From the IMG/VR virus record IMGVR_UViG_3300042868_006487, positions 1-35,370 of that record: a DNA stretch of 35,370 bases, one strand, 5' to 3'. Both the position numbers and the translations under genes were made by a program. Shown in pieces: positions 12,291 to 35,370 of the stretch. Numbering within the stretch: position 1 is the stretch's first letter; each line of letters opens with the position of its first letter. The stretch is from a virus. Under the pieces are notes generated by a model. The model saw only the letters and a program-made list of their open reading frames with translations. It did not search any database and was not told where the DNA came from.

Positions 12291-13084
12291 TATTGTCCTT
12301 CCACTGTTTCTGGTATGAGAAAAGGCTGGTCCGTTATTCCATCTTCATAAGTATGGGCCTCGCCCAGTCTTAATCTTTCCATGTCCATAGCTATACGCAT
12401 TTTTTCCATATCTGTTCCGGCTTGTCTACGAAAATCCCCATCTAAGATAATTTTCTTAATAAGGGAGGCGAAAGTCGTCTTACTATCTTCGATAGCTTTA
12501 ATCCGCTGCTCTCTTGTCCCCTTCAAGTCCTTAATCATGGATGATTTTTTAGTTTGCAAATCTTTATAATCCCTTGAGATCGCTTCTTGGGAGGCCCGAA
12601 GAACTGCTAGTTGTCTTTCTAAATTAAGAACTAAATCCCAATCAATATCCGCTTTATTCTTGTTCTTCTCTTCTATGATAATCTTCTCCATATTGGATAC
12701 AGATTTAATATTATCATTTTGAGACTTTAAGCTACGATTCATTAAGATTTCTAACTTTATTGTATCGACAATTTGAATCTCTTCAGTGTGGAACACGTCA
12801 TCCCTAAACTGGGACCACATCTTCTTCCAGTGAAACAGGAACATTTCCAGCTCATCTTCGTTGAATTGAGATTCTAAATCGTACCAATAAGCTTTATTCT
12901 TTAGTTCATTTATAGCCTCGACTTCCTTACGGTCGTTTGCATTGACCCCCACATTTTGTTTAATCCAGAGAAGGACCGATTTGGGGTCTCGGTCCAAAAC
13001 TGTAGCTATATTCTCATAAGACATATCTTTAATATTATTCTTGATATAAGATTGTTCAGATAAGTCTAGTCTTCCTTTACGCAT
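12290..13084 (-). CDS. Probable terminase small subunit
   Basis: 264 aa. Residues 8-50 (SEQSYIKNNIKDMSYENIATVLDRDPKSVLLWI) form a helix-turn-helix DNA-binding domain. The middle is Lys/Glu-rich coiled coil (IIIEEKNKNK to RAIEDSKTTF), and a helical C-terminus follows. HTH plus coiled coil upstream of TerL is the standard small-terminase layout, which recognises the packaging site and regulates TerL. The intervening gmd and nuclease genes are unusual. It overlaps sigma by 8 nt and gmd by 1 nt. Sequence identity to known TerS is not recognisable by eye. Confidence 0.6.
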   Translation of the reverse strand: MRKGRLDLSEQSYIKNNIKDMSYENIATVLDRDPKSVLLWIKQNVGVNANDRKEVEAINELKNKAYWYDLESQFNEDELEMFLFHWKKMWSQFRDDVFHTEEIQIVDTIKLEILMNRSLKSQNDNIKSVSNMEKIIIEEKNKNKADIDWDLVLNLERQLAVLRASQEAISRDYKDLQTKKSSMIKDLKGTREQRIKAIEDSKTTFASLIKKIILDGDFRRQAGTDMEKMRIAMDMERLRLGEAHTYEDGITDQPFLIPETVEGQ

Positions 13085-13586
13085 AGAATTTCTCTAATAT
13101 GTTTTTTAAACAACTAATCAGTTGAGATTTTTTAGTTTTAGTTAAAGTTTGATCATTCTTAAATCGTAGGTAATCGCTTCGCATATTAGCAGGTAAGTGA
13201 AGATCTATATAGTCTATCAGTTCGCGCTCTTCTATGGAGTTTGAGGATTCCTTCGCGGATATGAAAGATCTAATATCCTCTATATTCCCGGCATCTAGTA
13301 ATTTTTTCTTGCCCTGCTGGATTTCCTCGGCTTTTCCCTCGTCGTGACGATAGTAGTTGTCGCGTTTGAAATTCTTTAATCGGTTTTTTATGTGAATCGA
13401 AAGAAAGTTTTCGAGTGGCCTAACACCATCGTAGCGGTCGAGGGCTTCCATCCCAATGATAAACGCCTCTTGGGAAATATCATCCTCCTCATAATTGGGG
13501 AAGGTGAATTTACTCGCCAGTCGAGAAGAGATCATCGATATGGTGGACACTACTTGTTCCTCTGTCATATTTTTTGGAATTTTCAT
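13077..13586 (-). CDS. Sigma-70-like factor (phage late sigma candidate, gp55-like)
   Basis: 169 aa. Residues 34-80 match sigma70 region 2: EDDISQEAFIIGMEALDRYD then PLENFLSIHIKNRLKNFKRDN, the core-binding and -10-recognition segment. The C-terminal about 50 aa is short and helical, so region 4 is reduced or absent, as in T4 gp55, which directs late transcription without a -35. AAGGA lies 5 nt upstream. Encoded at the head of the structural cluster it presumably directs. The ATGTGTAT motifs are the candidate target. The family call is firm and the late-sigma role is inferred. Confidence 0.8.
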   Translation of the reverse strand: MKIPKNMTEEQVVSTISMISSRLASKFTFPNYEEDDISQEAFIIGMEALDRYDGVRPLENFLSIHIKNRLKNFKRDNYYRHDEGKAEEIQQGKKKLLDAGNIEDIRSFISAKESSNSIEERELIDYIDLHLPANMRSDYLRFKNDQTLTKTKKSQLISCLKNILEKFYA

Positions 13587-14736: not shown

Positions 14737-14934
14737 ATGACGAACGCAACAAACATGACGAACAACAACGCTCGAATCGTAGTTTGCCCTAATGGTGAAC
14801 TCAATGTTGTATACACTGCCCTAGGCATGAATGTCTACATGAACAATCAAGCTGACGCTATTGAATTGTTTAACCTAGTCAACATCGAAGGCTTGACGGT
14901 CACAGAACTAAAAGCACTAGGCTTCGGCTGGTAA
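14737..14934 (+). CDS. Early protein, paralogue family alpha (copy 1)
   Basis: 65 aa from the ATG after AAAGGAACGATAAG. An upstream in-frame ATG at 14701 lies only 13 nt after the -10 and belongs to the leader. Shares with the genes at 15207 and 17262 the core NNARIVVCPNGELNVVYTAL, GMNVYMNNQADAIELFNLVN and the ending ELKALGF-W. Function unknown. No membrane segment or Cys cluster. The three copies mark duplication of a whole promoter-leader-gene unit. Confidence 0.85.
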   Translation: MTNATNMTNNNARIVVCPNGELNVVYTALGMNVYMNNQADAIELFNLVNIEGLTVTELKALGFGW

Positions 14935-24585: not shown

Positions 24586-24610
24586 CATTGTCGGTAGGGT
24601 GTGGTACAAT
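24582..24610 (+). promoter_or_regulatory. Early promoter P20
   Basis: TTGACA, 17 bp, TACAAT, stop codon inside the -35. Confidence 0.9.
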
Positions 24611-24660
24611 TCACTAGTCGGAATAACGCTGGTTTCACAATCACAGGACAGGACAGAATC

Positions 24661-25440
24661 ATGATCAAGTTTTCAGCCGCTAACACAAAGCTCAAAAAAC
24701 TGTACAAAGTCGCCGCTCTTGCCAAGTGGCTTGACGGTCGCCGCAAGATTTACAGTTTCGACCTCTTGTCAGGCTGGGCCTGCCCACAGGCCGATCAATG
24801 CCAATCGCGTGCTATTTTGGTCGATGGTAAACGTAGGATTCAAGACGGCCCAAATACTGTATTCAGGTGTTTCTCCGCTTCACAGGAAGTGGTTTACACG
24901 AATGTTTACAATCTCCGTAAGGGTAATTTCGACGCCATTCGTGCGATTATTGCCCGCACTGATTTGACCGACGATCAAAAAGTTGCGGAAGTTGCAAGCC
25001 TATTGCAAGCCCATTTGCCAAAAAACGCCGGTATCGTTCGTATTCACGTTGCGGGCGATTTCTTCAACCGGATATATTTCAGAGCTTGGTTGCAAGTGAT
25101 TATGAATAATCCATCAATCCTCTTTTATGCTTATACCAAAGCATTAAATTATTGGATTGACGATATGAAAATTGTCAGTCCAATATCAAACCTTGTATTG
25201 ACCGCAAGCCGTGGCGGTAGGCTTGATGCAAAAATTGACGAATATAAATTGCGGGAAGCGATTGTATTGCAAGACGAGAATGAGGCTGCCGATTTCAACT
25301 TGGAAGTTGACAACGACGATTCCCACGCCGCTATCCCCGACAGCCGTAATAAGTCGTTCGCCTTGATTATTCACGGCACGCAACCCGCCAAGCCAAAGGT
25401 TAAAAAGGCCAAAAAAAAGGCCGTTTCTTTGGTGGGGTGA
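24661..25440 (+). CDS. Gp88-like phage protein
   Basis: 259 aa from the ATG after ACAGGACAGAATC. An in-frame ATG at 24601 lies inside the promoter. Motifs: WACPQADQCQSRA (Cys pair), FRCFSASQEVV, IVRIHVAGDFFNRIYFRAWL and FYAYTKALNYW match the phage Gp88-like family known from mycobacteriophages and others. Biochemical function is not established. Tail is Lys/Ala-rich. Followed by a 19-aa membrane peptide. Confidence 0.85.
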   Translation: MIKFSAANTKLKKLYKVAALAKWLDGRRKIYSFDLLSGWACPQADQCQSRAILVDGKRRIQDGPNTVFRCFSASQEVVYTNVYNLRKGNFDAIRAIIARTDLTDDQKVAEVASLLQAHLPKNAGIVRIHVAGDFFNRIYFRAWLQVIMNNPSILFYAYTKALNYWIDDMKIVSPISNLVLTASRGGRLDAKIDEYKLREAIVLQDENEAADFNLEVDNDDSHAAIPDSRNKSFALIIHGTQPAKPKVKKAKKKAVSLVG

Positions 25441-26449: not shown

Positions 26450-26662
26450 ATGCAAGCTCAATTCGACGACTTCGACGCCCAACTTCAATGTGAAGATGTT
26501 CAAGGCGATTACATTCCAACCGAGCAAGATTTGCTGGATATGGAAGTTGCTTTCGCTCTTGATCCAATGGAAGTGGTGGCCCAATTGGAAGCGATCATTC
26601 AGGAGTTCAATGCCCGTTCCGATTTTGACAGGTGGTGTGAAGATTTCTTTGGGGGTGAATAA
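26450..26662 (+). CDS. Acidic early protein (PTEQDL family, copy 2)
   Basis: 70 aa after AAAGGAAACGACAG. FDDFDAQLQCEDVQGDYIPT, then EQDLLDMEVAFALDPMEVVA and FNARSDFDRWCEDFFGG. Shares YIPTEQDLLDME with the protein at 15976 but has a different C-terminus. Confidence 0.8.
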   Translation: MQAQFDDFDAQLQCEDVQGDYIPTEQDLLDMEVAFALDPMEVVAQLEAIIQEFNARSDFDRWCEDFFGGE

Positions 26663-26673
26663 CTCCTACAATT

Positions 26674-26739
26674 GTCGAGAGCGGATGTGATAGCCGGTAT
26701 GCCGGTGCTATCTGACAGGTTCGATTCCTGTACTCGACT
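26674..26739 (+). ncRNA. tRNA-like element 1 (no anticodon arm)
   Basis: Acceptor GTCGAG / CTCGAC, and a canonical T arm ACAGGTTCGATTCCTGT. Where D and anticodon arms should be, one hairpin GATAGC...GCTATC surrounds CGG-TATG-CCG. 66 nt, about 8 short of a tRNA, with no anticodon. May be a degenerated tRNA or a tRNA mimic. Confidence 0.6.
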
Positions 26740-26741
26740 TT

Positions 26742-26849
26742 CGCGATGATGGTTCTTTCCTGTTCAACTCTTGACTGGCGTTCTAAAAAAACGACACAAC
26801 CAAGAAAAAAGTTGAACCTGAAATTGTGGTTCGATTCCACTTATTGCGT
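26742..26849 (+). ncRNA. tRNA-like element 2 (long insert)
   Basis: 5' CGCGATG can pair (with G-T pairs) with 3' TATTGCG, after a normal T arm GTGGTTCGATTCCAC. Between them an approximately 75-nt insert carries GTTCAACT / AGTTGAAC, a strong stem next to the T arm. No D or anticodon arm is visible. A tmRNA-like arrangement comes to mind, but no tag ORF is identified. Less certain than element 1. Confidence 0.4.
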
Positions 26850-26892
26850 TCCGCAACTTCGCGGTGTCCGATTGTTCACTATCTAAGGTGAA

Positions 26893-27300
26893 ATGTTCAT
26901 GTCGATTCGTATTCAGAACTCAGATCGTAAAATTGCCAAAACCGCAAATGCAACCGCTGGTATTACCAGTGGCCGATCTGATCTACTCTTGCTTGGAAAT
27001 AAAGTGGTATCGGTTCAAAAGAATGGCAACGAATTCCGCACACACTGTGCCGATTCGACATTGAAACAATTCGCCGATAACATTTATGCCATGCTGGAAA
27101 ATAAGAATAGTCCGGTTTTGAAAAAAGTTCATCCTTTTCTCACTCCGTACACTTTGCAAGCTGCCAGAACTCGCAAGTCAACTAAAACCAACCCTAACAT
27201 CTATTCACCTGTATACGGTGTAAAGCGTATGGGAATTCGCGATAGGCTTAAGCAAATTGAAATCATGACACAACGGAAGGCGGGAACCTTGGTGGCCTGA
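26893..27300 (+). CDS. Hypothetical protein (GNKVVSV motif)
   Basis: 135 aa, AAGGTGAA before ATG. IRIQNSDRKIAKTANATAGI, then LLLLGNKVVSVQKNGNEFRT and ADSTLKQFADNIYAMLENK, with a basic C-terminal YGVKRMGIRDRLKQIEIMTQ. The GN-V / alpha-helix pattern resembles the protein at 22347. No promoter is seen just upstream; the tRNA-like elements lie between it and P23, so it may be read with them. Stop overlaps the next ATG as TGATG. Confidence 0.75.
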   Translation: MFMSIRIQNSDRKIAKTANATAGITSGRSDLLLLGNKVVSVQKNGNEFRTHCADSTLKQFADNIYAMLENKNSPVLKKVHPFLTPYTLQAARTRKSTKTNPNIYSPVYGVKRMGIRDRLKQIEIMTQRKAGTLVA

Positions 27301-27359
27301 TGATAATCATATTGATGTTCTTTTTGGGCATTGCAATATCATTATCTCAACGTGATTAA
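27300..27359 (+). CDS. Tiny membrane peptide (19 aa, copy 2)
   Basis: MIIILMFFLGIAISLSQRD, TGATG overlap with the upstream stop. Same length and design as the 25446 peptide, also followed by an ATGCAATCG terminator. Real coding is inferred from this conserved arrangement. Confidence 0.6.
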   Translation: MIIILMFFLGIAISLSQRD

Positions 27360-27365
27360 TATTAA

Positions 27366-27395
27366 ATGCAATCGTTTCGGCGGTTGCATTTTTTT
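27366..27395 (+). terminator. Terminator after 19-aa peptide, copy 2
   Basis: ATGCAATCG, loop TTTCGG, CGGTTGCAT, then a T run. Strong 9-pair stem with one G-T. Confidence 0.93.
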
Positions 27396-27413
27396 ATCGA
27401 CTGAAATACAATT

Positions 27414-27497
27414 GATATAAGTCCTTGCTATGTAAGGATTTACGGCGAGCGCCGCTGGGGGAAACGCCATAAGTCCTTATACTATATATACTTACGT
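27414..27497 (+). repeat. Repeat A copy 10
   Basis: ATAAGTCCTTGCTATGTAAG left side, TAAGTCCTTATAC right side, core GGCGAGCGCCGCTGGGGG. Confidence 0.85.
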
Positions 27498-27507
27498 CGA
27501 TGTTAAG

Positions 27508-27606
27508 ATGGGGCGACTGGGTGGTTCAGAGCGATTAGGTGGTTTGGGGGATCTGGGTAATTTGGGTAGTCTGGGGGCTATGGGTGGAACAGACTATATA
27601 ATCTGA
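27508..27606 (+). other. G-rich tract, possible Gly/Leu-rich micro-ORF
   Basis: Seven runs of three or more G within about 80 nt (27511-27587), so a G-quadruplex on the plus strand is possible. An in-frame ATG at 27508 would encode a 32-aa peptide with GLGDLGNLGSLGAMGG, but there is no ribosome site or promoter, so coding is doubtful. Immediately followed by Repeat B copy 1. Confidence 0.45.
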
Positions 27607-27638
27607 TTCGCCACGGTAAGCCACAGTCAGCTAACTTT
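27594..27638 (+). repeat. Repeat B copy 1
   Basis: CTATATAATCTGATTCGCCA then GGTAAGCCACAGTCAGCTAA, 45-nt element, close to copies at 27646, 34782, 34979 and 35241. Confidence 0.85.
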
Positions 27639-27645
27639 GGAACAC

Positions 27646-27691
27646 CTTATATAATCCGATTCGCCACGTTAAGCTACAGTCAGCTAACTTT
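27646..27691 (+). repeat. Repeat B copy 2
   Basis: Direct repeat of copy 1 at a 52-bp period with a few substitutions (GTTAAGCTACAGTCAGCTAA). Confidence 0.85.
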
Positions 27692-27714
27692 CTGAAATAA
27701 TTTGGCCTAAAGAC

Positions 27715-27743
27715 TTGACAGCCGTATGTCGATAATGTATAAT
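27715..27743 (+). promoter_or_regulatory. Early promoter P24
   Basis: TTGACA, 17 bp, TATAAT. Confidence 0.92.
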
Positions 27744-27787
27744 AGTAATATAAGAAACGAGTCACCTATCTCAAAGGAGAGTTGCAG

Positions 27788-27865
27788 ATGTTAGAAGTCA
27801 TAGCTCTGGTTGCTGGATATTGTGTTGGTCAACTAATCAAGATGGTTTTCAAGGGGCAATTCTGA
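27788..27865 (+). CDS. Tiny membrane protein (25 aa)
   Basis: Begins MLEVIALVAGYCVGQLIKMV, one hydrophobic helix then a basic end FKGQF. AAAGGAGAGTTGCAG gives an excellent ribosome site, and it has its own promoter. Not recognised. Confidence 0.7.
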   Translation: MLEVIALVAGYCVGQLIKMVFKGQF

Positions 27866-27874
27866 GAAAATCGC

Positions 27875-27902
27875 TTGACATGTCAGTTTGGTATGGTAGA
27901 AT
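27875..27902 (+). promoter_or_regulatory. Early promoter P25
   Basis: TTGACA, 16 bp, TAGAAT. Confidence 0.88.
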
Positions 27903-27945
27903 AGAGTAGTAAGAGATCACTGAACCCAATCACAAGGATATCAAA

Positions 27946-28317
27946 ATGAGCGTATCTTGGAAACACACAACATTCAGGCCCAGTACCACTGAATTGGCTA
28001 AAATGAAAGCCAAACTTCCCGACTATAGGAATTGGTACTATATCGAATGTTTGGAGTCTGCTGACGGTTGGGACGATGGAGAGAATCATATCTTAGTGAA
28101 GTTCTACTCGCCCGATGGAATGCAGACTGTGTATGGCGAACCCGTTCACTATGAGCATAGCCGAATTGAGACCTTTAACTTCTGCGACTATGCTGATAAG
28201 CCAGAGCCACCATCAATCGAATCGCGGCTGAACATCGCTGAATGGCAAGTTGCCGGACTTGAGAAAATCATAAAAGAATTGAAAGATCGGTTGACAAAAT
28301 TGGAAAGTGGTGTATAA
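27946..28317 (+). CDS. Hypothetical early protein
   Basis: 123 aa after AAGGATATCAAA. Trp/Tyr-rich N-terminal half (KLPDYRNWYYIECLESADGW), C-terminal helix WQVAGLEKIIKELKDRLTKL. Its last codons contain the tRNA-cluster promoter, and its stop TAA is within that promoter's -10. Unrecognised. Confidence 0.78.
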   Translation: MSVSWKHTTFRPSTTELAKMKAKLPDYRNWYYIECLESADGWDDGENHILVKFYSPDGMQTVYGEPVHYEHSRIETFNFCDYADKPEPPSIESRLNIAEWQVAGLEKIIKELKDRLTKLESGV

Positions 28318-28318
28318 T
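28291..28318 (+). promoter_or_regulatory. Promoter of tRNA cluster 1
   Basis: TTGACA, 16 bp, TATAAT. The stop codon of the upstream gene lies inside the -10, and the first tRNA starts 12 nt later. Confidence 0.92.
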
Positions 28319-28329
28319 AGATATACGAA

Positions 28330-28414
28330 GCGTGTTGACCGAGTTGGATAACGGGCCTGACTGTAAATCAGGTGGCATTACAAGCCTCAAGTGGTTCGAT
28401 TCCACTAGCACGCA
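28330..28414 (+). tRNA. tRNA-Tyr (GTA)
   Basis: Acceptor GCGTGTT/AGCACGC, anticodon loop CTGTAAA, long variable arm (class II), T arm GTGGTTCGATTCCAC. No encoded CCA. Confidence 0.93.
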
Positions 28415-28415
28415 A

Positions 28416-28488
28416 TGGTCAGTAGCTCAATTGGTAGAGCATTCCGCTGTTAACGGAACGGTTACAGGTTCGATTCCTGTCTGACCAG
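28416..28488 (+). tRNA. tRNA-Asn (GTT)
   Basis: Acceptor TGGTCAG/CTGACCA, loop CTGTTAA, T arm ACAGGTTCGATTCCTGT. One nt after tRNA-Tyr. No encoded CCA. Confidence 0.95.
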
Positions 28489-28489
28489 C

Positions 28490-28643
28490 TTCTGTTGTGC
28501 CATGCGTACAATATGAAACGGGGTTGTTATGCAACCCTAGCAGTTTAGTCGGCTTGCTAGGCCGGTAATTCTAGCACGTCAAGACCGTGATTTTAGTCGC
28601 TTTTGGAACCGGATATGACGTATTTACCTAAAGAAGCGTAAGC
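28490..28643 (+). other. Unassigned structured gap between tRNAs
   Basis: 154 nt with no tRNA or ORF. Stems visible: GGGTTG/CAACCC, CTAGCA/TGCTAG, ACGTCA/TGACGT. It would be part of the tRNA transcript and may be an ncRNA or processing region. Confidence 0.35.
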
Positions 28644-28715
28644 GGAACTATGGTGTAACTGGCAGCACCGCAGACTTTTAATCTGTTAGTCTGGGATCGT
28701 CCCCCAGTAGTTCCA
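28644..28715 (+). tRNA. tRNA-Lys (TTT)
   Basis: Acceptor GGAACTA/TAGTTCC, loop CTTTTAA, D arm GTGT/CACC. Confidence 0.92.
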
Positions 28716-28718
28716 CTC

Positions 28719-28789
28719 GGTCCAATAGCTCAATGGTAGAGCAGCTGTTTTGTAAACAGCCGAACTCAGTTCGATTCTGAGTTGGACCT
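28719..28789 (+). tRNA. tRNA-Thr (TGT)
   Basis: Acceptor GGTCCAA/TTGGACC, loop TTTGTAA, T arm CTCAGTTCGATTCTGAG. No CCA. Confidence 0.93.
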
Positions 28790-28790
28790 C

Positions 28791-28818
28791 TTGACAAAGG
28801 AAAATCATGTGATACAAT
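28791..28818 (+). promoter_or_regulatory. Early promoter P26
   Basis: TTGACA, 16 bp, TACAAT, directly after tRNA-Thr. Confidence 0.88.
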
Positions 28819-28862
28819 AGAACTGTCGGATTGTAGTGTAGATTTTAACAAGAGTATAATAT

Positions 28863-28931
28863 ATGATGATGTTTACGCTATTCATGTGTGGAATTATACT
28901 GAGTATCCAATGTCCTGAAAGTGGAGAATAA
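28863..28931 (+). CDS. Tiny membrane protein (22 aa)
   Basis: MMMFTLFMCGIILSIQCPES plus GE, one hydrophobic helix. Own promoter 45 nt upstream; AAGAG is a weak ribosome site. Its end overlaps the ribosome site of the next gene. Not recognised. Confidence 0.45.
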   Translation: MMMFTLFMCGIILSIQCPESGE

Positions 28932-28932
28932 A

Positions 28933-29217
28933 GTGGGTAAGTCATATAGGAAGACTCCAATCTTCAAAATCGCTGGTGAATCTGATAAGAGTAGCAAGAA
29001 ACAATGTAATAAGAAGTTGAGGGGGGCAACCCGCGAAGCTCTTAAGGGGTATGATCCCTCTGGTGATGATGATCTTATCATCCCAGAGCAGGAAGAAGTG
29101 ATGGATGTGTGGACCTTCAATAGCGATGGTAAGAAGTATGTTCACGATGTAGTAGAACATAAACAACGATGGGAACGTCCTGCTGACAAAAGGGATATCG
29201 ACCATGACATGGCGTGA
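28933..29217 (+). CDS. Hypothetical basic protein
   Basis: 94 aa from GTG after GGAG with 6-nt spacing. Lys-rich start (VGKSYRKTPIFKIAGESDKS), then DDDLIIPEQEEVMDVWTFNS and KKYVHDVVEHKQRWERPADK. An earlier GTG at 28921 lies in the ribosome site. Unrecognised. Confidence 0.7.
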   Translation: MGKSYRKTPIFKIAGESDKSSKKQCNKKLRGATREALKGYDPSGDDDLIIPEQEEVMDVWTFNSDGKKYVHDVVEHKQRWERPADKRDIDHDMA

Positions 29218-29407
29218 ACTGAAAGATTACTTGAACTCACTTGATGAAAGATTCTTGGATACAGAAGTTCAAGTTTATGACTGTGAAGAACAGATAACGT
29301 ATACAGACACAATATTTGCAGCAGACAATGATGATACAGACTATATCATTGATCTTAATCAACCTCAGATATGGTTCCGAACGGGTGATGTGACTTTCGA
29401 CGATTAA
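29204..29407 (+). CDS. Hypothetical protein (MTW-ELK family)
   Basis: 67 aa, MTWRELKDYLNSLDERFLDT then VQVYDCEEQITYTDTIFAAD. N-terminus parallels the MTV-ELI proteins at 20032. Overlaps the previous gene by 14 nt. Confidence 0.75.
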   Translation: MTWRELKDYLNSLDERFLDTEVQVYDCEEQITYTDTIFAADNDDTDYIIDLNQPQIWFRTGDVTFDD

Positions 29408-29428
29408 TTCTTTATAGGAGTATAGCCG

Positions 29429-29722
29429 ATGAGAGATGTTCTTGAATTTTCTGCTGAGTTCTGGGAGAATAAGCTGGATAGAGACCCACAGAATGTCGAT
29501 AATATATATAGGGAATCTAACAAAGGAGTGACCTATGCGATTGATGATTACTGTGGCTTTGATCCTGTCTTGCAGTGGATGCAAACACTTCCAGAAGCGG
29601 GAAGCCCCATTTCCTGCTCTGGTAGCCCCAAAGCTGGGAAGCGTAGAGGTAAGGGTCGAAGAACCAAAGCAGCCCAAAGTGATAAACATCTCTCTCTTGC
29701 CAATTCAAAATCTTACGATTAA
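29429..29722 (+). CDS. Hypothetical protein overlapping lipoprotein gene
   Basis: 97 aa if whole. AGGAGTATAGCCG precedes the ATG. MRDVLEFSAEFWENKLDRDP, then YGFDPVLQWMQTL-like region; the last 40 residues (KAGKRRGKGRRTKAA) look like a shadow of the lipoprotein frame. Possibly translated only in part. Confidence 0.45.
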   Translation: MRDVLEFSAEFWENKLDRDPQNVDNIYRESNKGVTYAIDDYCGFDPVLQWMQTLPEAGSPISCSGSPKAGKRRGKGRRTKAAQSDKHLSLANSKSYD

Positions 29723-29732
29723 GGCATTTTGA
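29535..29732 (+). CDS. Short lipoprotein, possibly Rz1-like spanin
   Basis: 65 aa. AAAGGAGTGACCT before ATG is a strong ribosome site. MRLMITVALILSCSGCKHFQ is a signal peptide with lipobox cysteine (ILSC or SGC), followed by a Pro-rich stretch (REAPFPALVAPKLG, EEPKQPK). Lipoprotein length and Pro content resemble outer-membrane spanins, but no inner-membrane partner is seen. The frame overlaps the 29429 ORF. A weak TGGATA/GATAAT promoter-like pair lies before it. Confidence 0.65.
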   Translation: MRLMITVALILSCSGCKHFQKREAPFPALVAPKLGSVEVRVEEPKQPKVINISLLPIQNLTIKAF

Positions 29733-29734
29733 GC

Positions 29735-29762
29735 TTGACAAAGGATTTCTATCTGCTATAAT
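29735..29762 (+). promoter_or_regulatory. Early promoter P27
   Basis: TTGACA, 16 bp, TATAAT. Confidence 0.92.
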
Positions 29763-29783
29763 AGTAGTATAAGGAGGCGAGTG

Positions 29784-29954
29784 ATGATAACGAACTGTTT
29801 GCTGTATGTGCCAACTCTTGACAAGATGTTCTCTGGTAACATTGGAGATAATGGAGAAGTTCATATCTTCATGCCAAATCATGGCGGCGGGGTGTTTGAG
29901 TTATTGTCCGATGCGTTCTTGAGTGGTTTCAATATCTCTGTCTATCCGGGGTGA
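29784..29954 (+). CDS. Hypothetical early protein
   Basis: 56 aa after AAGGAGGCGAGTG (the strongest type of ribosome site). CLLYVPTLDKMFSGNIGDNG, then HIFMPNHGGGVFELLSDAFL. Not recognised. First of a three-gene unit. Confidence 0.75.
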   Translation: MITNCLLYVPTLDKMFSGNIGDNGEVHIFMPNHGGGVFELLSDAFLSGFNISVYPG

Positions 29955-29957
29955 TCT

Positions 29958-30143
29958 ATGAACAAGTACGTTGTTGCGGTCTATGCTACCTATGCTACGG
30001 ATATCGAAGTAGAAGCTGAGAATGAAGACGAGGCCAAAGACAAGGCAAATGACTACATAGAAGAGAATGAATGCGAATTTGAATATTACGAAACGCGGGA
30101 TATGGACGAGTGGGAAACTCTTAAAATCGGAGAAGTCAAGTGA
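29958..30143 (+). CDS. Hypothetical protein with acidic EAENEDEAK repeat
   Basis: 61 aa, MNKYVVAVYATYATDIEVEA, then ENEDEAKDKANDYIEENECE. This beta-strand plus 'EA-EDEA--KA' layout is common among small phage/plasmid proteins of the DpnD/PcfM-like type. Function unknown. Confidence 0.72.
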   Translation: MNKYVVAVYATYATDIEVEAENEDEAKDKANDYIEENECEFEYYETRDMDEWETLKIGEVK

Positions 30144-30337
30144 TCTATTTCTACAAAGTCACCAATCTGGTAACTGGCAAAGTCTACGATGGCCAAGCCA
30201 CTGATATTGATGAGTTCTCATCTTATCGTGACTTCATTGCAAATCTTGAATCGCTGAACTCTCTGTGGTCTGGCGAATATAAATTTGAGGAAAGTTCCCC
30301 AAAAAGATGCTTGACAAGTGAATACGAAATGGTATAA
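30140..30337 (+). CDS. Hypothetical early protein
   Basis: 65 aa, ATGA overlap. MIYFYKVTNLVTGKVYDGQA resembles the opening of GIY-YIG-type domains, but no catalytic motif follows. The last codons hold the next promoter, with the TAA stop in its -10. Confidence 0.7.
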   Translation: MIYFYKVTNLVTGKVYDGQATDIDEFSSYRDFIANLESLNSLWSGEYKFEESSPKRCLTSEYEMV

Positions 30338-30338
30338 T
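30311..30338 (+). promoter_or_regulatory. Early promoter P28
   Basis: TTGACA, 16 bp, TATAAT inside the end of the upstream gene. Confidence 0.92.
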
Positions 30339-30385
30339 AGAGTAGTGAGATGAAGATGATTCAAACCTTTCAGGAGAAGATAGAG

Positions 30386-30709
30386 ATGATCGCACAATTG
30401 ACCGCTGGTAACAAAGTCAAATTCCAGTATGTTGAGCGTAAACTAGACAAGACTCATCTACCAGCCCATACTCAATATCAGATCAAAGATTACGAGGGTA
30501 CAATCCTTCAAGTCCGCGATCTTTTTGAGGACGAATTAAGCTATGAGACAATCATGCGTAACAGGGATATTGAACGATCACAATATCTACTAACTGTTCA
30601 AATGCCAGACAATAAGATCAAGTCGTTCTATGATGGTCGAGTTGTCAACGTCAAGAAGATTAACAAGAACTTTCTTCGTCGTACACTTGACAAGCTGACT
30701 GGTAAGTGA
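30386..30709 (+). CDS. Hypothetical protein (LTAGNKVKFQY family)
   Basis: 107 aa from the ATG with AGGAG 9 nt upstream; the ATG at 30350 is too near the transcription start. QLTAGNKVKFQYVERKLDKT, then YQIKDYEGTILQVRDLFEDE, YLLTVQMPDNKIKSFYDGRV. Small beta-barrel-like phage family with no assigned function. End carries the promoter of tRNA cluster 2. Confidence 0.78.
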   Translation: MIAQLTAGNKVKFQYVERKLDKTHLPAHTQYQIKDYEGTILQVRDLFEDELSYETIMRNRDIERSQYLLTVQMPDNKIKSFYDGRVVNVKKINKNFLRRTLDKLTGK

Positions 30710-30715
30710 TATAAT
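30687..30715 (+). promoter_or_regulatory. Promoter of tRNA cluster 2
   Basis: TTGACA, 17 bp, TATAAT; -35 and spacer lie inside the preceding gene. Confidence 0.92.
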
Positions 30716-30790
30716 AAGATAGTCAATCAGTGAAGTTGGGTTTCGCCATTTCCCAAATGAGATTGACTGCAACCCAAAATGGCATCTACT
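30716..30790 (+). other. Structured leader of tRNA cluster 2
   Basis: Three complementary pairs: AGTCAATC/GATTGACT, TTGGGTT/AACCCAA and GCCATTT/AAATGGC, in an interleaved order, plus a TTGGG/CCCAA hairpin. They cannot all form together, so alternative folds or a pseudoknot are possible. Confidence 0.5.
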
Positions 30791-30861
30791 GGCCTATAGC
30801 TCAACTGGAAGAGCAGTCACCTTATAAGTGACAGGCTTCGGGATCGTACCCCGATAGGCCA
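30791..30861 (+). tRNA. tRNA-Ile (TAT)
   Basis: Acceptor GGCCTAT/ATAGGCC, loop CTTATAA with anticodon TAT, which would read AUA directly. T arm CGGGATCGTACCCCG. Confidence 0.9.
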
Positions 30862-30866
30862 AATAT

Positions 30867-30939
30867 GCCCTTATCGTCTAGTGGCCTAGGACGCAAGATT
30901 TTCAATCTTGAGACCGGAGTTCAATTCTCCGTAGGGGTA
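30867..30939 (+). tRNA. tRNA-Glu (TTC)
   Basis: Loop TTTTCAA, D arm GTCTAGTGGCCTAGGAC, T arm CGGAGTTCAATTCTCCG. Acceptor GCCCTTA/TAGGGGT with G-T pairs. Confidence 0.92.
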
Positions 30940-30940
30940 T

Positions 30941-31011
30941 TCGAAGATGATGTAATGGTAGCATAACAGAATTTGAATCTGTTTGTATAGGTTCGACCCC
31001 TATTCTTCGAT
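30941..31011 (+). tRNA. tRNA-Gln (TTG)
   Basis: Acceptor TCGAAGA/TCTTCGA, loop ATTTGAA, T arm ATAGGTTCGACCCCTAT. Confidence 0.92.
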
Positions 31012-31014
31012 TAT

Positions 31015-31099
31015 GCGGATGTGGCGAAATGGTATACGCAACAGATTTAAAATCTGTCGAGGATTAAACCTCATATGGGTTCGACTCCCATCATCCGTA
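31015..31099 (+). tRNA. tRNA-Leu (TAA)
   Basis: Class II, long variable arm. Acceptor GCGGATG/CATCCGT, loop TTTAAAA, T arm ATGGGTTCGACTCCCAT. Confidence 0.93.
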
Positions 31100-31170
31100 T
31101 TAGATAGACATTAACAGTAAGTTTGAGTATTCTTAACTAAATCTATCTTACGAACAAAATACTCAGATTC

Positions 31171-31244
31171 GCCCCGATAGCTCAATTGGATAGAGCAACA
31201 GCCTTCTAAGCTGTAGGTTTCAGGTTCAAGTCCTGATTGGGGTA
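31171..31244 (+). tRNA. tRNA-Arg (TCT)
   Basis: Acceptor GCCCCGA/TTGGGGT, loop CTTCTAA, T arm CAGGTTCAAGTCCTG. Preceded by a 71-nt gap holding GAGTATT/AATACTC. Confidence 0.93.
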
Positions 31245-31282
31245 TTCGTCTTTCTGTTAGGTGTTGGTATCCAAAAGCAAAG

Positions 31283-31309
31283 CCCATCGCTCGTTGCGGT
31301 GGGTTTTTT
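31283..31309 (+). terminator. Terminator of tRNA cluster 2
   Basis: CCCATCGC, loop TCGTT, GCGGTGGG, then six T. Confidence 0.95.
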
Positions 31310-31310
31310 C

Positions 31311-31391
31311 GTAAGTACTTACTACGTAAGGATTTACAACGCCCCCGCCATCGCGCCTCGCCGCAAGTCCTTACACCACAAACACTTACAA
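31311..31391 (+). repeat. Repeat A copy 11 (rightmost)
   Basis: TAAGGATTTAC left arm, CAAGTCCTTACACCACAAAC right side, C-rich core (CGCCCCCGCCATCGCG). Most divergent core, the outer arm pairing kept. Confidence 0.8.
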
Positions 31392-31429
31392 CAATAAAAA
31401 ATAAACTACAAAATATCCCCCCACAGGGC

Positions 31430-31457
31430 TTGACAGCAGCTTTTTATCTTGTATAAT
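31430..31457 (+). promoter_or_regulatory. Early promoter P29
   Basis: TTGACA, 16 bp, TATAAT. Confidence 0.92.
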
Positions 31458-31513
31458 ATAGGAGTAAGGAAGTGAGAAACGAAACGAGTAAACTCTCTAA
31501 GGAGATCTAAGAT

Positions 31514-31735
31514 ATGCTCAAGTCTATGAATGTTCGCAACGGTCGTAAGTTGGTCGTGTCCTATCCTGTAGGCGGGAATCGTAACATCCTCAAGACTCGC
31601 GATGGCAAGATCATTCGTCAGGGTGTATCTGCTAACGGTCAATATGTTGTCCTTCAATACACTGACAAGGGGTTCAATCGTATTGCTTCCCTCTCATGTG
31701 TAAAAATGGTGAATCCTGTAATTTTCACCAGATAA
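31514..31735 (+). CDS. Hypothetical early protein
   Basis: 73 aa after AAGGAGATCTAAGAT. Beta-rich, MNVRNGRKLVVSYPVGGNRN then GKIIRQGVSANGQYVVLQYT. Not recognised. Ends 3 nt before the next -35. Confidence 0.75.
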   Translation: MLKSMNVRNGRKLVVSYPVGGNRNILKTRDGKIIRQGVSANGQYVVLQYTDKGFNRIASLSCVKMVNPVIFTR

Positions 31736-31738
31736 GCC

Positions 31739-31766
31739 TTGACAACTGTGTTCTATCCTGTATAAT
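31739..31766 (+). promoter_or_regulatory. Early promoter P30
   Basis: TTGACA, 16 bp, TATAAT. Leader hairpin AGTGGAT/ATCCACT (31800-31839) follows. Confidence 0.92.
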
Positions 31767-31869
31767 AGTAGTATAGCCAGTCAAACGTATGATGAGTTAA
31801 GTGGATCTCATTCACGACTGTCTCGACCACAAATCCACTATCTTCTATCTAAGAAAGAGATCTATACCG

Positions 31870-32187
31870 ATGGCAAAAACGACTCGCAAATTCATCAATG
31901 CTGAAGATTTCGTGTCCGTTTACATGGATGTTTATCAACGTGGCTTTGATGCCGAGTCTAATACGACTTCTGGCACGATTCAAGATGTTGCTGACCATTT
32001 CGGCCTTGACCTTGAAACGTCTTACCAGAAGGCTCTCAAGCTCCGTAAAGAGCTTAAGGAAGTGGGCGTAGAACTGCCAACCATGCGACGAACCGACGAA
32101 GTTCGCAAGCCTAAGAAAGATCTCTCCAAACTGGCTGAGATCATCGCAGCCAAGCGTGCTGGCGAATTGCTCGCCTCTATTGACTAA
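31870..32187 (+). CDS. Probable DNA-binding protein with HTH-like helix pair
   Basis: 105 aa from the ATG at 31870. GTIQDVADHFGLDLETSYQK (about residues 37-56) looks like an HTH (TIxDVAxxFGLxxxTxYQK). Basic tail (RRTDEVRKPKKDLSKL). Could be a transcription regulator of the early region, not shown. The ORF extends upstream to 31801 but that lies in a hairpin leader. Confidence 0.65.
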   Translation: MAKTTRKFINAEDFVSVYMDVYQRGFDAESNTTSGTIQDVADHFGLDLETSYQKALKLRKELKEVGVELPTMRRTDEVRKPKKDLSKLAEIIAAKRAGELLASID

Positions 32188-32205
32188 AATATATAGTTTG
32201 GGGGG

Positions 32206-32234
32206 TTGACATTCAGCCCCTCATGCATTATAAT
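32206..32234 (+). promoter_or_regulatory. Early promoter P31
   Basis: TTGACA, 17 bp, TATAAT. Confidence 0.93.
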
Positions 32235-32257
32235 AGCAGTACAAGAAAGGGAAAGAT

Positions 32258-32449
32258 ATGATCGAGAACACATACGATAATTGTAAGAAGCTGGCCCAGT
32301 TGTCAACTGATAGTATGGACGTAGAAAGTCTAATCGAATTCTACCAAGTGACATTGCTTGATCGTCTATTAGATGACCAAAGAGTTTTTGAATGTGAACT
32401 AGAGAATATGGATATCAAAACTCAGGAAGAATTGGATGGTGACGAGTGA
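32258..32449 (+). CDS. Hypothetical acidic protein
   Basis: 63 aa after AAAGGGAAAGAT. Helical, LAQLSTDSMDVESLIEFYQV, acidic end. Overlaps the next gene in GTGA. Unknown function. Confidence 0.72.
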   Translation: MIENTYDNCKKLAQLSTDSMDVESLIEFYQVTLLDRLLDDQRVFECELENMDIKTQEELDGDE

Positions 32450-32625
32450 GATTAACTCTCAAAGCTCTTGAACAACTTGCTAAGTCAAAAGGCTTAGTAG
32501 TAAAAAAAACGAATGGGTCTCTATATAAGTATGAGATCCATAAAGTATATGATAGTAGTAAGACTATCTTTGCTCGGAATGCTGGCGAAACACAATACGA
32601 AATTGAGAATTGGGGCCAATCATGA
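32446..32625 (+). CDS. Small hypothetical protein (GTG start)
   Basis: 59 aa, VRLTLKALEQLAKSKGLVVK, then LYKYEIHKVYDSSKTIFARN. GTGA overlap upstream, ATGA overlap downstream, indicating coupling. Confidence 0.62.
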   Translation: MRLTLKALEQLAKSKGLVVKKTNGSLYKYEIHKVYDSSKTIFARNAGETQYEIENWGQS

Positions 32626-32786
32626 ACACCTACGAAATTCTGCGACATAATCAACTTTGGATCTTGACATGTAAGACTCCAGATGGTACAATATCTACAG
32701 TGACAATGAGTGGTAGCAAACTACTAGTACATAACATGAAGGTAACTTTGGAGAACCAACAATGCCTGACTGGAAGTTCGTCCTAA
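32622..32786 (+). CDS. Small hypothetical protein carrying an internal promoter
   Basis: 54 aa, MNTYEILRHNQLWILTCKTP then MSGSKLLVHNMKVTLENQQC. ATGA overlap with upstream. Promoter P32 and the ribosome site of the next gene lie inside it. Moderate support. Confidence 0.5.
   Translation: MNTYEILRHNQLWILTCKTPDGTISTVTMSGSKLLVHNMKVTLENQQCLTGSSS
32664..32692 (+). promoter_or_regulatory. Promoter P32 inside coding region
   Basis: TTGACA, 17 bp, TACAAT. Confidence 0.85.
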
Positions 32787-33049
32787 TCAACGAAAAAACT
32801 GGCGAGTCACAAGATTTAACAACGGAGTTCTGGGCCGATGAAAACATTCGTAACGCTGAAGAGGTCGGCTATTGCGACATATCGTCAAGCGATGCTGCTC
32901 ACGGTGAGGCTCTCGAACGTCTTGGCTATCGTGTTACAGTCGTAGAGGGTGTAAGCACGGCAAAGCCTTTGGCCTACGAAGAAAAAACCTACAAATACGA
33001 GATCAAACATAATCCTTTAGATGGCTATACTATCGTAGACTTGGAGTGA
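32762..33049 (+). CDS. Hypothetical early protein
   Basis: 95 aa after TTGGAGAACCAACA. WKFVLINEKTGESQDLTTEF, then HGEALERLGYRVTVVEGVST, ending HNPLDGYTIVDLE. No recognised family. Confidence 0.75.
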   Translation: MPDWKFVLINEKTGESQDLTTEFWADENIRNAEEVGYCDISSSDAAHGEALERLGYRVTVVEGVSTAKPLAYEEKTYKYEIKHNPLDGYTIVDLE

Positions 33050-33051
33050 GT

Positions 33052-33213
33052 ATGACTAATCACCAGAAAGATCAGATCCTAAATGTAGTTCAATACTACA
33101 TGACTCCTGAACTCAGAGAGAGGATCATGAGAGAAGTTCCTGTGGCATATAATGCTTGGGTCGGGTTTCCTGTTGTAGAAGTGAGAGTGATAAATGATGC
33201 TACCAAAGATTAA
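33052..33213 (+). CDS. Small hypothetical protein
   Basis: 53 aa. MTNHQKDQILNVVQYYMTPE, ELRERIMREVPVAYNAWVGF. ATG 2 nt after the previous stop. Overlaps the next gene by 20 nt. Confidence 0.65.
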   Translation: MTNHQKDQILNVVQYYMTPELRERIMREVPVAYNAWVGFPVVEVRVINDATKD

Positions 33214-33457
33214 TGTAAGAGTAGGAGAGAATGTGGTCGATGAGGCTGCAAGAGATCCTGTCAAGTATGTATCACGTAAAGCTCTATTGCTCAATAAAGA
33301 GAATAGAGTTTTATCTAAGATGGTCGATAAGCTCGCAACTCAATTGAGTGAGGGAGATACAGACGAGTATAATCATCTATACTATGCCATGGTGTTAGTA
33401 TTGAATGTGGTTAATACTCAGATGGAAGTTGATAATCTAAAAGAAATGTATTCTTAA
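33194..33457 (+). CDS. Hypothetical early protein
   Basis: 87 aa (or 86 from the second ATG). INVRVGENVVDEAARDPVKY, then NKENRVLSKMVDKLATQLSE and helical end. Function unknown. Confidence 0.7.
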   Translation: MMLPKINVRVGENVVDEAARDPVKYVSRKALLLNKENRVLSKMVDKLATQLSEGDTDEYNHLYYAMVLVLNVVNTQMEVDNLKEMYS

Positions 33458-33460
33458 CTC

Positions 33461-33488
33461 TTGACAAGGTGAGATCCTGTGGTATAAT
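33461..33488 (+). promoter_or_regulatory. Early promoter P33
   Basis: TTGACA, 16 bp, TATAAT. Confidence 0.93.
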
Positions 33489-33537
33489 ATAAGAGTAAGA
33501 GAGACAACCACTAACCAAGTATTGCAGGACAAGAAAT

Positions 33538-34713
33538 ATGAGTACGCTAGAGATCAAGAGTGATAAGTCTGCTGGGGCATTCGTCAAGGCTCAACAAGGC
33601 TTTGCCGATGGCTTTCACGTGTCAAAGATCTGGGCTAAAAAGTGCCAGTCGTTCGATCAGGTCATGGAAACTGTTCAACGATCTGCTGAGGAGCGTGAGG
33701 ATCTGCTGGTTCCACTGTCAGACATTGAGCCAGTTGTAGGTGAGGGCGGCAAGTTTGCGTTTGAGATTGCAGGTAAACAATATAAACCAACAGAATGGGC
33801 ATTGGGCCAATTCTCTGGGCGGCTCAAGCTGCCATCGTCAACGGTCATTCGGGAGCTATTGAATCAAGATGATTCGGATTGGGAAGATTCGGATGTTGCT
33901 GTTCGTATTGCTAAAAATGCTATTCGAAGAGCGGACAAAGATAAGAAATATCGAGTTCGTGCTTACAGCGATGGTACACTTCGTGCATTTGTCACTGATA
34001 AGTATGCACCGATTGATAATAGATGGTATCTCGAAACAATGAACGAGCATCTTCCCGGCTCAATGTATTCACACTGGCGGGGCGACGATGATACTATCTA
34101 TGGTAATCTACTATTACCTGACAGTATTATCGACTATGGTCAAAGTGATGACTCAGACTATGGTGGAATGCTCTCTGTGGGTAATTGCGAGATCGGCAAG
34201 CGTAGGATTAGTCAAAAGCCTAGCCTGTTCAGGTCTATCTGCATGAACGGTTGTATCTGGGGCAAAACTGAGGGCGAGATGATTGATCGTCGTCACATCG
34301 GCAAAGTTGATCTAGTTGATCTTAAGAAGCGTATCGTCGATAACATTGAGAAGCAACTACCACTAATTCCAATTGGTGTTAGAAAATTTCTCAGCCTGCA
34401 AACATTCAAGGTTGAAGGTTCGATGAAACAAATCTTGGGTGCTGTATGCATTAGGAATAAATTGGATAAGACTGAGAGTAGAGAAGTCTTAACTCAGTTT
34501 GCCACATTTGAAAAGGATGACAGGAACTTGTTTGGGATTGTCAATTCTATCACAAGGGCTGGGCAAAATCTCTCTAATGAGACTTGGGTCGAGTTCGATA
34601 AGCTGGGCGGACAACTTACGAGCTATACGGAAAGTGAGTGGGATATGCTGAATGCGTACTCTAAGACGATTACGTCAGAACAGATAGATGAGGTGTTCGC
34701 AACGGCTGGGTGA
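33538..34713 (+). CDS. DUF932-like phage protein
   Basis: 391 aa, largest gene of the early region. YRVRAYSDGTLRAFVTDKYA, the GNCEIGKRRISQKPSLFRSI region and CMNGCIWGKTEGEMIDRRHI match DUF932/phage-plasmid-like proteins, widespread on phages and plasmids and without an established biochemical role. Single-gene unit with its own promoter and terminator. Nothing appears truncated. Confidence 0.85.
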   Translation: MSTLEIKSDKSAGAFVKAQQGFADGFHVSKIWAKKCQSFDQVMETVQRSAEEREDLLVPLSDIEPVVGEGGKFAFEIAGKQYKPTEWALGQFSGRLKLPSSTVIRELLNQDDSDWEDSDVAVRIAKNAIRRADKDKKYRVRAYSDGTLRAFVTDKYAPIDNRWYLETMNEHLPGSMYSHWRGDDDTIYGNLLLPDSIIDYGQSDDSDYGGMLSVGNCEIGKRRISQKPSLFRSICMNGCIWGKTEGEMIDRRHIGKVDLVDLKKRIVDNIEKQLPLIPIGVRKFLSLQTFKVEGSMKQILGAVCIRNKLDKTESREVLTQFATFEKDDRNLFGIVNSITRAGQNLSNETWVEFDKLGGQLTSYTESEWDMLNAYSKTITSEQIDEVFATAG

Positions 34714-34717
34714 CTTG

Positions 34718-34740
34718 GGGGGTTTGGAGGGGTTGGGGGG
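34718..34740 (+). other. G-rich tract after DUF932-like gene
   Basis: Runs GGGGGG, GGAGGGG and GGGGGG before the terminator. A G-quadruplex is possible. As at 27511, Repeat B follows within about 60 nt. Confidence 0.5.
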
Positions 34741-34764
34741 CTTCGGCCTTCCGGCCCTTTTTTT
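34738..34764 (+). terminator. Terminator of DUF932-like gene
   Basis: GGGC-TT-CGG, loop CCTT, CCG-GCCC, then seven T. Seven pairs with a TT bulge. Confidence 0.9.
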
Positions 34765-34781
34765 GTGCTGTTTGGATTATC

Positions 34782-34826
34782 CTATATATTCTGATTCGCA
34801 CGGTTATCCACAGTCAGCTAACTTTT
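34782..34826 (+). repeat. Repeat B copy 3 (with DnaA-box sequence)
   Basis: CTGATTCGCACGGTTATCCA continues CAGTCAGCTAAC. TTATCCACA is a perfect DnaA-box sequence. Confidence 0.85.
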
Positions 34827-34837
34827 CAATTTTCTAG

Positions 34838-34866
34838 TTGACAATCGGTTAACCTTCTGGTATAAT
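34838..34866 (+). promoter_or_regulatory. Early promoter P34
   Basis: TTGACA, 17 bp, TATAAT. Drives the 35034 gene, with an approximately 160-nt leader that contains Repeat B copy 4. No ORF is seen in 34870-35030. Confidence 0.9.
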
Positions 34867-34978
34867 ACTAATATGGATATAAAGACAAGTAGGATTTGAT
34901 TAGAAATAATCGCTTTGATACAGGCTTAGTTTACCTAACTATTTATATTCGTATCTCCTGAACTAAATGTATCACTCT

Positions 34979-35021
34979 ATCTATTATGATTCGCAGGATG
35001 AGCCACAGTCAGCTAACTTTT
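34979..35021 (+). repeat. Repeat B copy 4
   Basis: CTATTATGATTCGCAGGATG, then AGCCACAGTCAGCTAACTTT. It lies in the 5' leader, ending 13 nt before the ATG of the next gene. Confidence 0.8.
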
Positions 35022-35033
35022 AAGGATAACAAT

Positions 35034-35237
35034 ATGGATGAAGAATTAGATAAGTCAACATTCTTGGCAGATTTTTTCTGTTCAGAATTAGCAGTGGAAG
35101 TATATAAGAATAGTGTAAGGGAAGTTACATCAGTTGATCGAGTAAAATACTTGGTTAGCTTTGCGGAGTCTCTATGGAGGGAATTGTGTCTGGCCAAGTC
35201 AGACGATGCAGATAGTTATGACAATCTAGATCTGTAA
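35034..35237 (+). CDS. Hypothetical acidic protein
   Basis: 67 aa from the ATG after AAGGATAACAAT; the ORF's earlier ATG at 34986 lies inside Repeat B. MDEELDKSTFLADFFCSELA then VEVYKNSVREVTSVDRVKYL. Acidic, mostly helical. Function unknown. Confidence 0.72.
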   Translation: MDEELDKSTFLADFFCSELAVEVYKNSVREVTSVDRVKYLVSFAESLWRELCLAKSDDADSYDNLDL

Positions 35238-35240
35238 TAG

Positions 35241-35286
35241 CTTATATATTAAGATTCGTCAGGATAGCCATAGTCAGCTAACTTTT
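35241..35286 (+). repeat. Repeat B copy 5
   Basis: CTTATATATTAAGATTCGTC, AGGATAGCCATAGTCAGCTA. Follows the stop of the 35034 gene. The remaining 84 nt to the window end hold no gene, only AT-rich sequence and a CCCGGAGG at the edge. Confidence 0.8.
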
Positions 35287-35370
35287 AGTATATATGACAT
35301 AGTAGGTTTATACTTTCCTAACTATATATACTTGAGGACAATAAAGTAAAAAGCCCGGAGGTTAATTCCT

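Follow-up and report, generated by a model that had tools for sequence, protein, structure and literature searches.

The early regions of T4-type phages carry PeSL cassettes, each composed of a promoter and a terminator stem-loop (Arbiol 2010 and Comeau 2014, as cited in PMC4503421). Cluster K mycobacteriophages contain the SAS/ESAS sequences, conserved and almost always co-oriented intergenic repeats located just 5' of start codons, and roughly half of these repeats abut an inverted repeat; their function is unknown (PMC3203893). Stoperators of the cluster A mycobacteriophages are described in PMC9283540 as repressor sites that halt transcription. Here we analyzed a 35,370-nt stretch of viral DNA, the whole of which is called the window below (the 35.4-kb virus record IMGVR_UViG_3300042868_006487 of IMG/VR), together with a close relative of 155,259 bp and a more distant relative of 41 kb. 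The window holds five copies of an asymmetric ~52-nt intergenic unit, oriented as the early genes and tRNAs are read. Judging from sequence comparison, we consider it moderately probable that these repeats are a dispersed control cassette of the early region, positioned at the boundaries of expression units in one group of large phages.

Like PeSLs, the element is a repeated intergenic unit of an early region with a conserved motif among small genes, and part of its copies adjoin a host-type early promoter (PMC4503421). It differs from PeSLs as characterized there in that its conserved part stops ahead of the -35 box and holds no T-run, and in that approximately half of its copies have no promoter. 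With SAS/ESAS it shares the character of conserved, co-oriented intergenic repeats (PMC3203893), although sequence and host are different, and SAS abut start codons whereas most of the present copies abut a sigma-70 promoter. The resemblance to stoperators (PMC9283540) is that of asymmetric repeated sites spread over a phage genome; in contrast, neither a repressor nor an integrase was identified here, and the present element is ~52 nt long. Among known elements, PeSLs and SAS/ESAS are the closest, a likeness of kind (PMC4503421; PMC3203893).

Window copies and the wider family

A sequence-only reading of the window had reported five copies of a 45-nt repeat. A search of the whole window with CCACAGTCAGCTAACTTT, allowing up to 3 mismatches, recovered exactly five co-oriented matches, all on the + strand, with cores at 27621, 27674, 34808, 35003, and 35268, whereas the reversed CCACAGTCAGCTAACTTT control gave 0 matches in the same search. 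The letters given as common to all copies are identical in three of the five cores, but the other two differ by one base (CTACAG... in copy 2; CCATAG..., along with GATTCGT, in copy 5). The repeat itself is real, but a 45-nt unit proved too short, as conservation in the 15 copies of the window and its two relatives spans ~52 nt. The unit has the form TGTAACAnCTTATATATTAAGATTCGC-N12-14-AGTCAGCTAACTTT and extends from TGTAACA through AGTCAGCTAACTTT; its two well-kept parts, TATnTAwT..GATTCG and AGTCAGCTAACTTT, enclose a variable middle. A sequence model of the 15 copies (R1) detected 5 copies in the window, 5 in the 155-kb relative, and 5 in the 41-kb relative at E <= ~5e-13, and the next-best match in the 597 kb scanned reached only E 0.0069. 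Both relatives repeat the layout of the window, with the five copies on one strand as a tandem pair followed ~7.5 kb later by a trio. The reported location of copy 4 within the leader of a 67-aa gene and of copy 5 after a stop, five bases past the stop codon of the same gene, was also borne out.

Confinement of the element to these three genomes was considered and overturned: at least four early IMG/VR matches that had looked like chance (loci L119, L121, L124, and L134) are genuine. A scan for TGGG arrays led to an 88-kb contig that carries the second repeat family of the window (see below) and a diverged element, GGATTTGCGGCTATGTGGTATAGTCAGC, behind its array. An independent sequence-only model was built from 24 copies of three further contigs, none of them from the window or its two relatives. 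Its top 11 matches in 232 kb were all known copies of the window and the two relatives, ahead of any false one, and the homology of the diverged copies is therefore real. With the new consensus, a scan of IMG/VR returned 67 stretches with 157 profile matches, 126 of them distinct; since such scans need exact words, the resulting family size is a lower bound, biased to the TCCTTCGGATT form.

Most of the related contigs are fragments. The ten long ones, of 150-238 kb, contain 3-10 copies per contig, in a single region and on a single strand in 10 of 10 cases, and in one of them this region seemingly wraps around the contig ends. Several family contigs encode relatives of the window terminase (52-56% over long matches), portal, sigma-like, or neighbouring proteins, and are therefore assigned to one phage group. 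A blast of the two module regions of the window against sequenced phages and plasmids gave no match, and the collections of this type that were searched with the window copies had none at the element. At the level of sequence comparison the element is shown to be a real, constrained family, apparently a large and so far undescribed one of ~52-nt intergenic elements. What began as a five-copy curiosity is now a feature of the whole group, with sharp ends and a clear consensus; it is present in dozens of contigs from uncultured phages, some of them 150-238 kb long, and can serve as a search motif for this phage group in metagenomes.

Element anatomy, matching triplets, and G-rich arrays

An alignment of 83 distinct, ungapped copies shows a sharp onset of conservation at TTGT and a drop a few bases past AGTCAGC, which is invariant; the consensus is TTGTcTCnCCTAATCCTTCGGATTTGGnnnnnnnTGGnnnTAGTCAGCGAAA, and it has no T-run. 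The left half contains the inverted repeat AATCC-nnn-GGATT in most relatives and is AT-rich in the window copies, from which the stem is absent. Three pairs of this stem covary (z 4.0-4.5, kinship uncorrected). Also part of the element are two TGGnnn words, spaced by the same 9 nt as the TGGG units of the arrays described below. Positions 2-4 and 11-13 after GGATTT vary strongly and yet are mutually equal (93, 76, and 66% identity), and the identity covariation of positions 2/11, 3/12, and 4/13 corresponds to z values of 8.2, 10.3, and 6.7. Whole triplets, of ten different kinds, match in 39 of the 83 copies versus 6.4 by shuffling (maximum 14 in 2000); the copies are related by descent, so these significance values are upper bounds. 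No convincing complementary partner for the variable triplets was found within 100 nt. Window copy 1 shows a related word pattern, GCCAcggtaaGCCA, but with the words 10 nt apart, and the triplet match is only partial in most copies of the window and its two relatives. To our knowledge, neither matching triplets at 9 nt nor G-rich arrays have been described for PeSLs.

The paired 9-nt-spaced words that change together are an odd feature that can be tested. They might mean that the element needs two matching TGGnnn words rather than a fixed sequence, which would account for the identity covariation; we regard this as clearly unlikely. For example, a ring- or filament-like phage protein would then bind TGG repeats every 9 nt in RNA or in single strands, much as TRAP binds its repeats although with another spacing, and the TGGG arrays would be extended docking tracts. 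If true, the element would represent phage control of a new kind.

The first G-rich array of the window contains a quadruplex-type motif at 27546-27584, and the second array starts at the stop codon of a DUF932-like gene. A quadruplex-type search of the three genomes gave two + strand matches in each, all six just 5' of the six element clusters, and one extra match on the opposite strand of the 155-kb relative. A TGGG every 9 nt describes these tracts better than a quadruplex does. In the window and its two relatives, arrays found at 15/16 matches are confined to the element clusters; in another relative, a TGGG array adjoins 1 of 9 copies. A coding reading of the arrays (Leu-Gly-X) was rejected, as the frame is open in some copies and contains stops in others.

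Placement and candidate roles

The copies are intergenic, with one exception that overlaps the final bases of an open frame. A promoter starts within 60 bp of 12 of 39 copies, compared to a background of 9%, and a start codon is found 17-21 nt past AGTCAGC in 6 of the 39. In the 83-copy set, a sigma-70 promoter is located 3' of 46 copies, with its -35 box 14-16 nt past the element in 29 of these. Another 18 copies are followed by a word resembling a ribosome-binding site (RBS) and an open frame. Of the 19 that are left, some run into a tRNA, a further element, or a second-family repeat array. Roughly half of the copies end 9-24 nt ahead of a sigma-70 -35 box; in the window, a perfect -35 box lies 24 bp from the end of copy 2, and a -35 box lies 12 bp from the end of copy 3. 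At each of 63 loci the copies keep to one strand, which is also the strand of every tRNA there. About a third of the copies begin at a stop codon, and an intrinsic terminator is present within 160 nt upstream of only 5 of 124 copies.

In the suggested control cassette, a putative phage protein would dock on the element, reading AGTCAGC together with the 9-nt-spaced TGG words, and beside some copies these words may have been lengthened into arrays that reach about five to seven units. Docking would set the boundary between neighbouring early units, either by tuning the promoter next to the element or by terminating or processing the RNA that reads in from upstream. As the working form, double-stranded DNA is slightly ahead of the transcript, because many copies stand at a fixed distance from the -35 box, which speaks for a DNA site, and because the window copies have no common RNA fold. 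The co-orientation with genes, tRNAs, and start codons, together with some covariation in the short stem, speaks for an RNA role. Such a cassette would provide a handle on how early gene and tRNA expression is laid out in these phages.

Several points weigh against this interpretation. Repeat-rich intergenic sequence is able to spread without function. A pure upstream promoter site fails to explain the start-codon copies that have no intervening sigma-70 promoter, and a pure RNA processing site fails to explain copies 1-3, which lie behind terminator-like hairpins. Triplets that vary and nevertheless match do not fit easily with a single, fixed code of protein recognition, and the upstream inverted repeat is not kept in the window copies.

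It is possible, if somewhat unlikely, that the boundary is drawn at the RNA level, with the transcribed element folding or being bound and then cut or terminated, so that the upstream message is parted from the gene, tRNA, or promoter that comes next. The strict co-orientation with genes and tRNAs, the third of copies that begin at a stop codon with so few intrinsic terminators just upstream, the three covarying pairs of the AATCC-nnn-GGATT stem, and the promoterless copies directly ahead of start codons would all fit. However, RNAalifold gave no common structure, RNA z-scores average near zero to -0.7, single-sequence energies are ordinary, a structured model performed no better than a sequence-only model, and in smaller alignments the pair counts were mostly equalled by shuffles. 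No Rfam match was obtained at E up to 1 for the elements of window positions 26500-35370 and of five loci of relatives, and the hairpins ahead of copies 1-3 are again at odds with this explanation. A hairpin of the whole element, seen in single-sequence folds, was discarded when pair counts and the structured model did not uphold it.

The copies that abut an RBS and start codon with no other promoter between, and the 5-bp stem with a 3-nt loop in most relatives, could also be accounted for if the element itself were a phage-specific promoter. An RNA polymerase that the phage modifies or encodes would recognize it, its core would be AT-rich or a short hairpin, and it would serve some genes by itself and others alongside a sigma-70 promoter. 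We find this quite improbable: there are merely 3-10 copies per genome, in one region, the AT-rich core keeps no -10 hexamer, and copies beside -35 boxes would be redundant. A search without a positive control gave no match to a single-subunit RNA polymerase, and a distinct motif, AATGTGTATA, precedes many late genes. The element differs from this motif of the phage's own, and its identification as the phage late promoter was rejected. The AATGTGTATA motif occurs on the - strand of the window at 13760, 8575, 6412, and 3349, and likewise in the 155-kb relative, 5' of many late genes that include the terminase/portal region and the major capsid candidate. It is likely a late promoter, perhaps read by the sigma-like protein encoded at 13077-13586.

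Iteron-type origins such as lambda ori and RK2 oriV consist of direct repeats with an AT-rich half, and clusters 1 and 2 of the window resemble them in both respects. The sequence-only reading had suggested an origin or iteron array, a protein-binding array, or a regulatory RNA motif, and had noticed a perfect DnaA box in copy 3. The box, TTATCCACA, is indeed present there and exclusive to that copy, which makes it 1 of the 15 copies in the window and its two relatives, and the five matches to TTWTNCACA are scattered over the window. A skew plot, which that reading had proposed, was made on the oriented 155-kb relative; the turning points of the cumulative skew are at ~22.5 and 117 kb, versus 35 and 43 kb for the elements, and they track switches of gene orientation. 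Fourfold-site skew shows no switch at the elements. Further copies were also to be sought, with an even spread unrelated to skew change or replication genes counting against an origin; other relatives have 5-12 copies over 6-28 kb of early region, which comes near to that outcome. With few DnaA boxes, placement off the skew, and copies dispersed in relatives, the origin proposal is unsupported.

An origin model, with a phage initiator that would bind the repeats and melt their AT-rich half while the G-rich arrays assist, appears very improbable. In its favour, the copies of the window phage and its two relatives are grouped in two clusters that lie 7.5 kb from each other in a genome of at least 155 kb; a G-rich array, an AT-rich segment, and tandem repeats are present in both clusters, and the skew maximum (117 kb) would be roughly opposite the clusters if the 155-kb contig closes on itself. 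Besides the scarcity of DnaA boxes and the skew, however, no DnaA C-terminal domain was found in the 155-kb and 41-kb relatives, for which controls worked, and no initiator gene was recognized near the elements. The genes for helicase, primase, and polymerase lie over 50 kb away. Whereas iterons are clustered at an origin, the relatives carry the element dispersed at gene junctions of the early region, tied to promoters and start codons, with no initiator or DnaA boxes found.

That the element is a recombination or mobile boundary sequence with no regulatory role, copied between junctions and used for module exchange, seems hardly credible. Partial homogenization (copy 3 shares its 5' flank with the pair of the 155-kb relative), the tandem copies, and the slippage-like 9-nt arrays would agree with it, but the element is constrained in its orientation and in its distance to -35 boxes and start codons, and no integrase or resolvase domain was found in the 155-kb relative. 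A partition, integrase, or resolvase site was likewise dismissed, as searches of the 155-kb and 41-kb relatives with working controls detected no ParB_N, tyrosine integrase, or resolvase domain.

Genomic neighbourhood of the element clusters

The features of the two clusters are collected in Table 1. To the left of ~13.7 kb, the window encodes the terminase, portal, and other proteins on the minus strand, adjoined by a small sigma-70 region 2 protein; the terminase of the 155-kb relative is 96% identical to that of the window. The right part is a + strand early region with very small genes, near-perfect sigma-70 promoters, and nine tRNAs. The nine tRNA genes are located at 28330-31244, between the two element clusters, and both near relatives keep this layout with a different tRNA set. 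In the 41-kb relative the conserved 67-aa gene is likewise flanked by elements, and there is no sigma-70 promoter between the elements and the gene. Past copy 5 of the window there is a terminator-like inverted repeat; its right arm is beyond the window end and is visible in a relative.

Table 1. Element copies and associated features in the window.
Feature	Position	Strand	Details
Terminator-like hairpin	27364..27396	+	closes transcription unit ahead of copies 1-2
First G-rich array	27545..27588	+	five TGGG units, 9-nt period, just 5' of copies 1-2
Element copy 1	27584..27638	+	first of tandem pair; 58.4 bits to R1; core 27621
Element copy 2	27639..27691	+	second of pair, 53 bp on; 55.8 bits
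Consensus sigma-70 promoter	27715..27743	+	3' of copies 1-2; 12/12 match
391-aa DUF932-like gene	33538..34713	+	ahead of cluster 2; phrog_1362; Pfam DUF932 match below cut-off
Second G-rich array	34707..34740	+	5' of copy 3; TGGG at 34707, 34716, 34734; TGGA at position between
Terminator-like hairpin	34726..34767	+	interval of second G-rich array and copy 3
Element copy 3	34771..34826	+	sole copy with TTATCCACA; 58.6 bits
Consensus sigma-70 promoter	34838..34866	+	3' of copy 3; 12/12 match
Element copy 4	34966..35021	+	directly 5' of RBS and ATG (35034) of 67-aa gene; 59.8 bits
67-aa gene	35034..35237	+	between copies 4 and 5; 91% and 44% identical in two relatives
Element copy 5	35231..35286	+	begins at stop codon of 67-aa gene; 58.7 bits

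The early-region spacers also contain a second repeat family, which looks like a protein-binding array. It consists of arrays of four 10-bp near-palindromes, TAAGTNCTTA, with a GC-rich centre and an overall dyad symmetry. The window has 11 such arrays of ~100 nt each (at 14933, 15421, 16271, 17022, 17798, 18783, 20513, 23134, 25596, 27405, and 31299), compared to 7 in the 155-kb, 11 in the 41-kb, and 21 in the 88-kb relative, and the family occurs in 36 of the 64 loci of the last scan, mostly in early-region spacers. The idea that the element shares the TAAGTNCTTA site, suggested by weak model matches, was dropped because a weight matrix of the array site scores most copies no higher than shuffles.

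Among the other genes, a structure model of the DUF932-like protein was too poor for use (predicted local distance difference test score, pLDDT, 47). A GP88-family protein is encoded in the early region of the window at 24601-25440 on the + strand (Pfam PF17338, E 2.3e-30). The 155-kb relative (loci L107 and L109) encodes a DUF1559 protein with a planctomycete-type prepilin start (E 2.7e-42) and another protein that ends in a PEP-CTERM-like tail, suggesting that the phage host belongs to the Planctomycetes or a related group. The same relative encodes a protein with a Cas12f1-like TNB (TnpB-type) domain (L108:16246-17709, - strand). In a phage of the same group, a Pistol ribozyme match scoring 54.8 bits, above the gathering score, is located directly 5' of two tRNAs (L331, 2080-2142, + strand).

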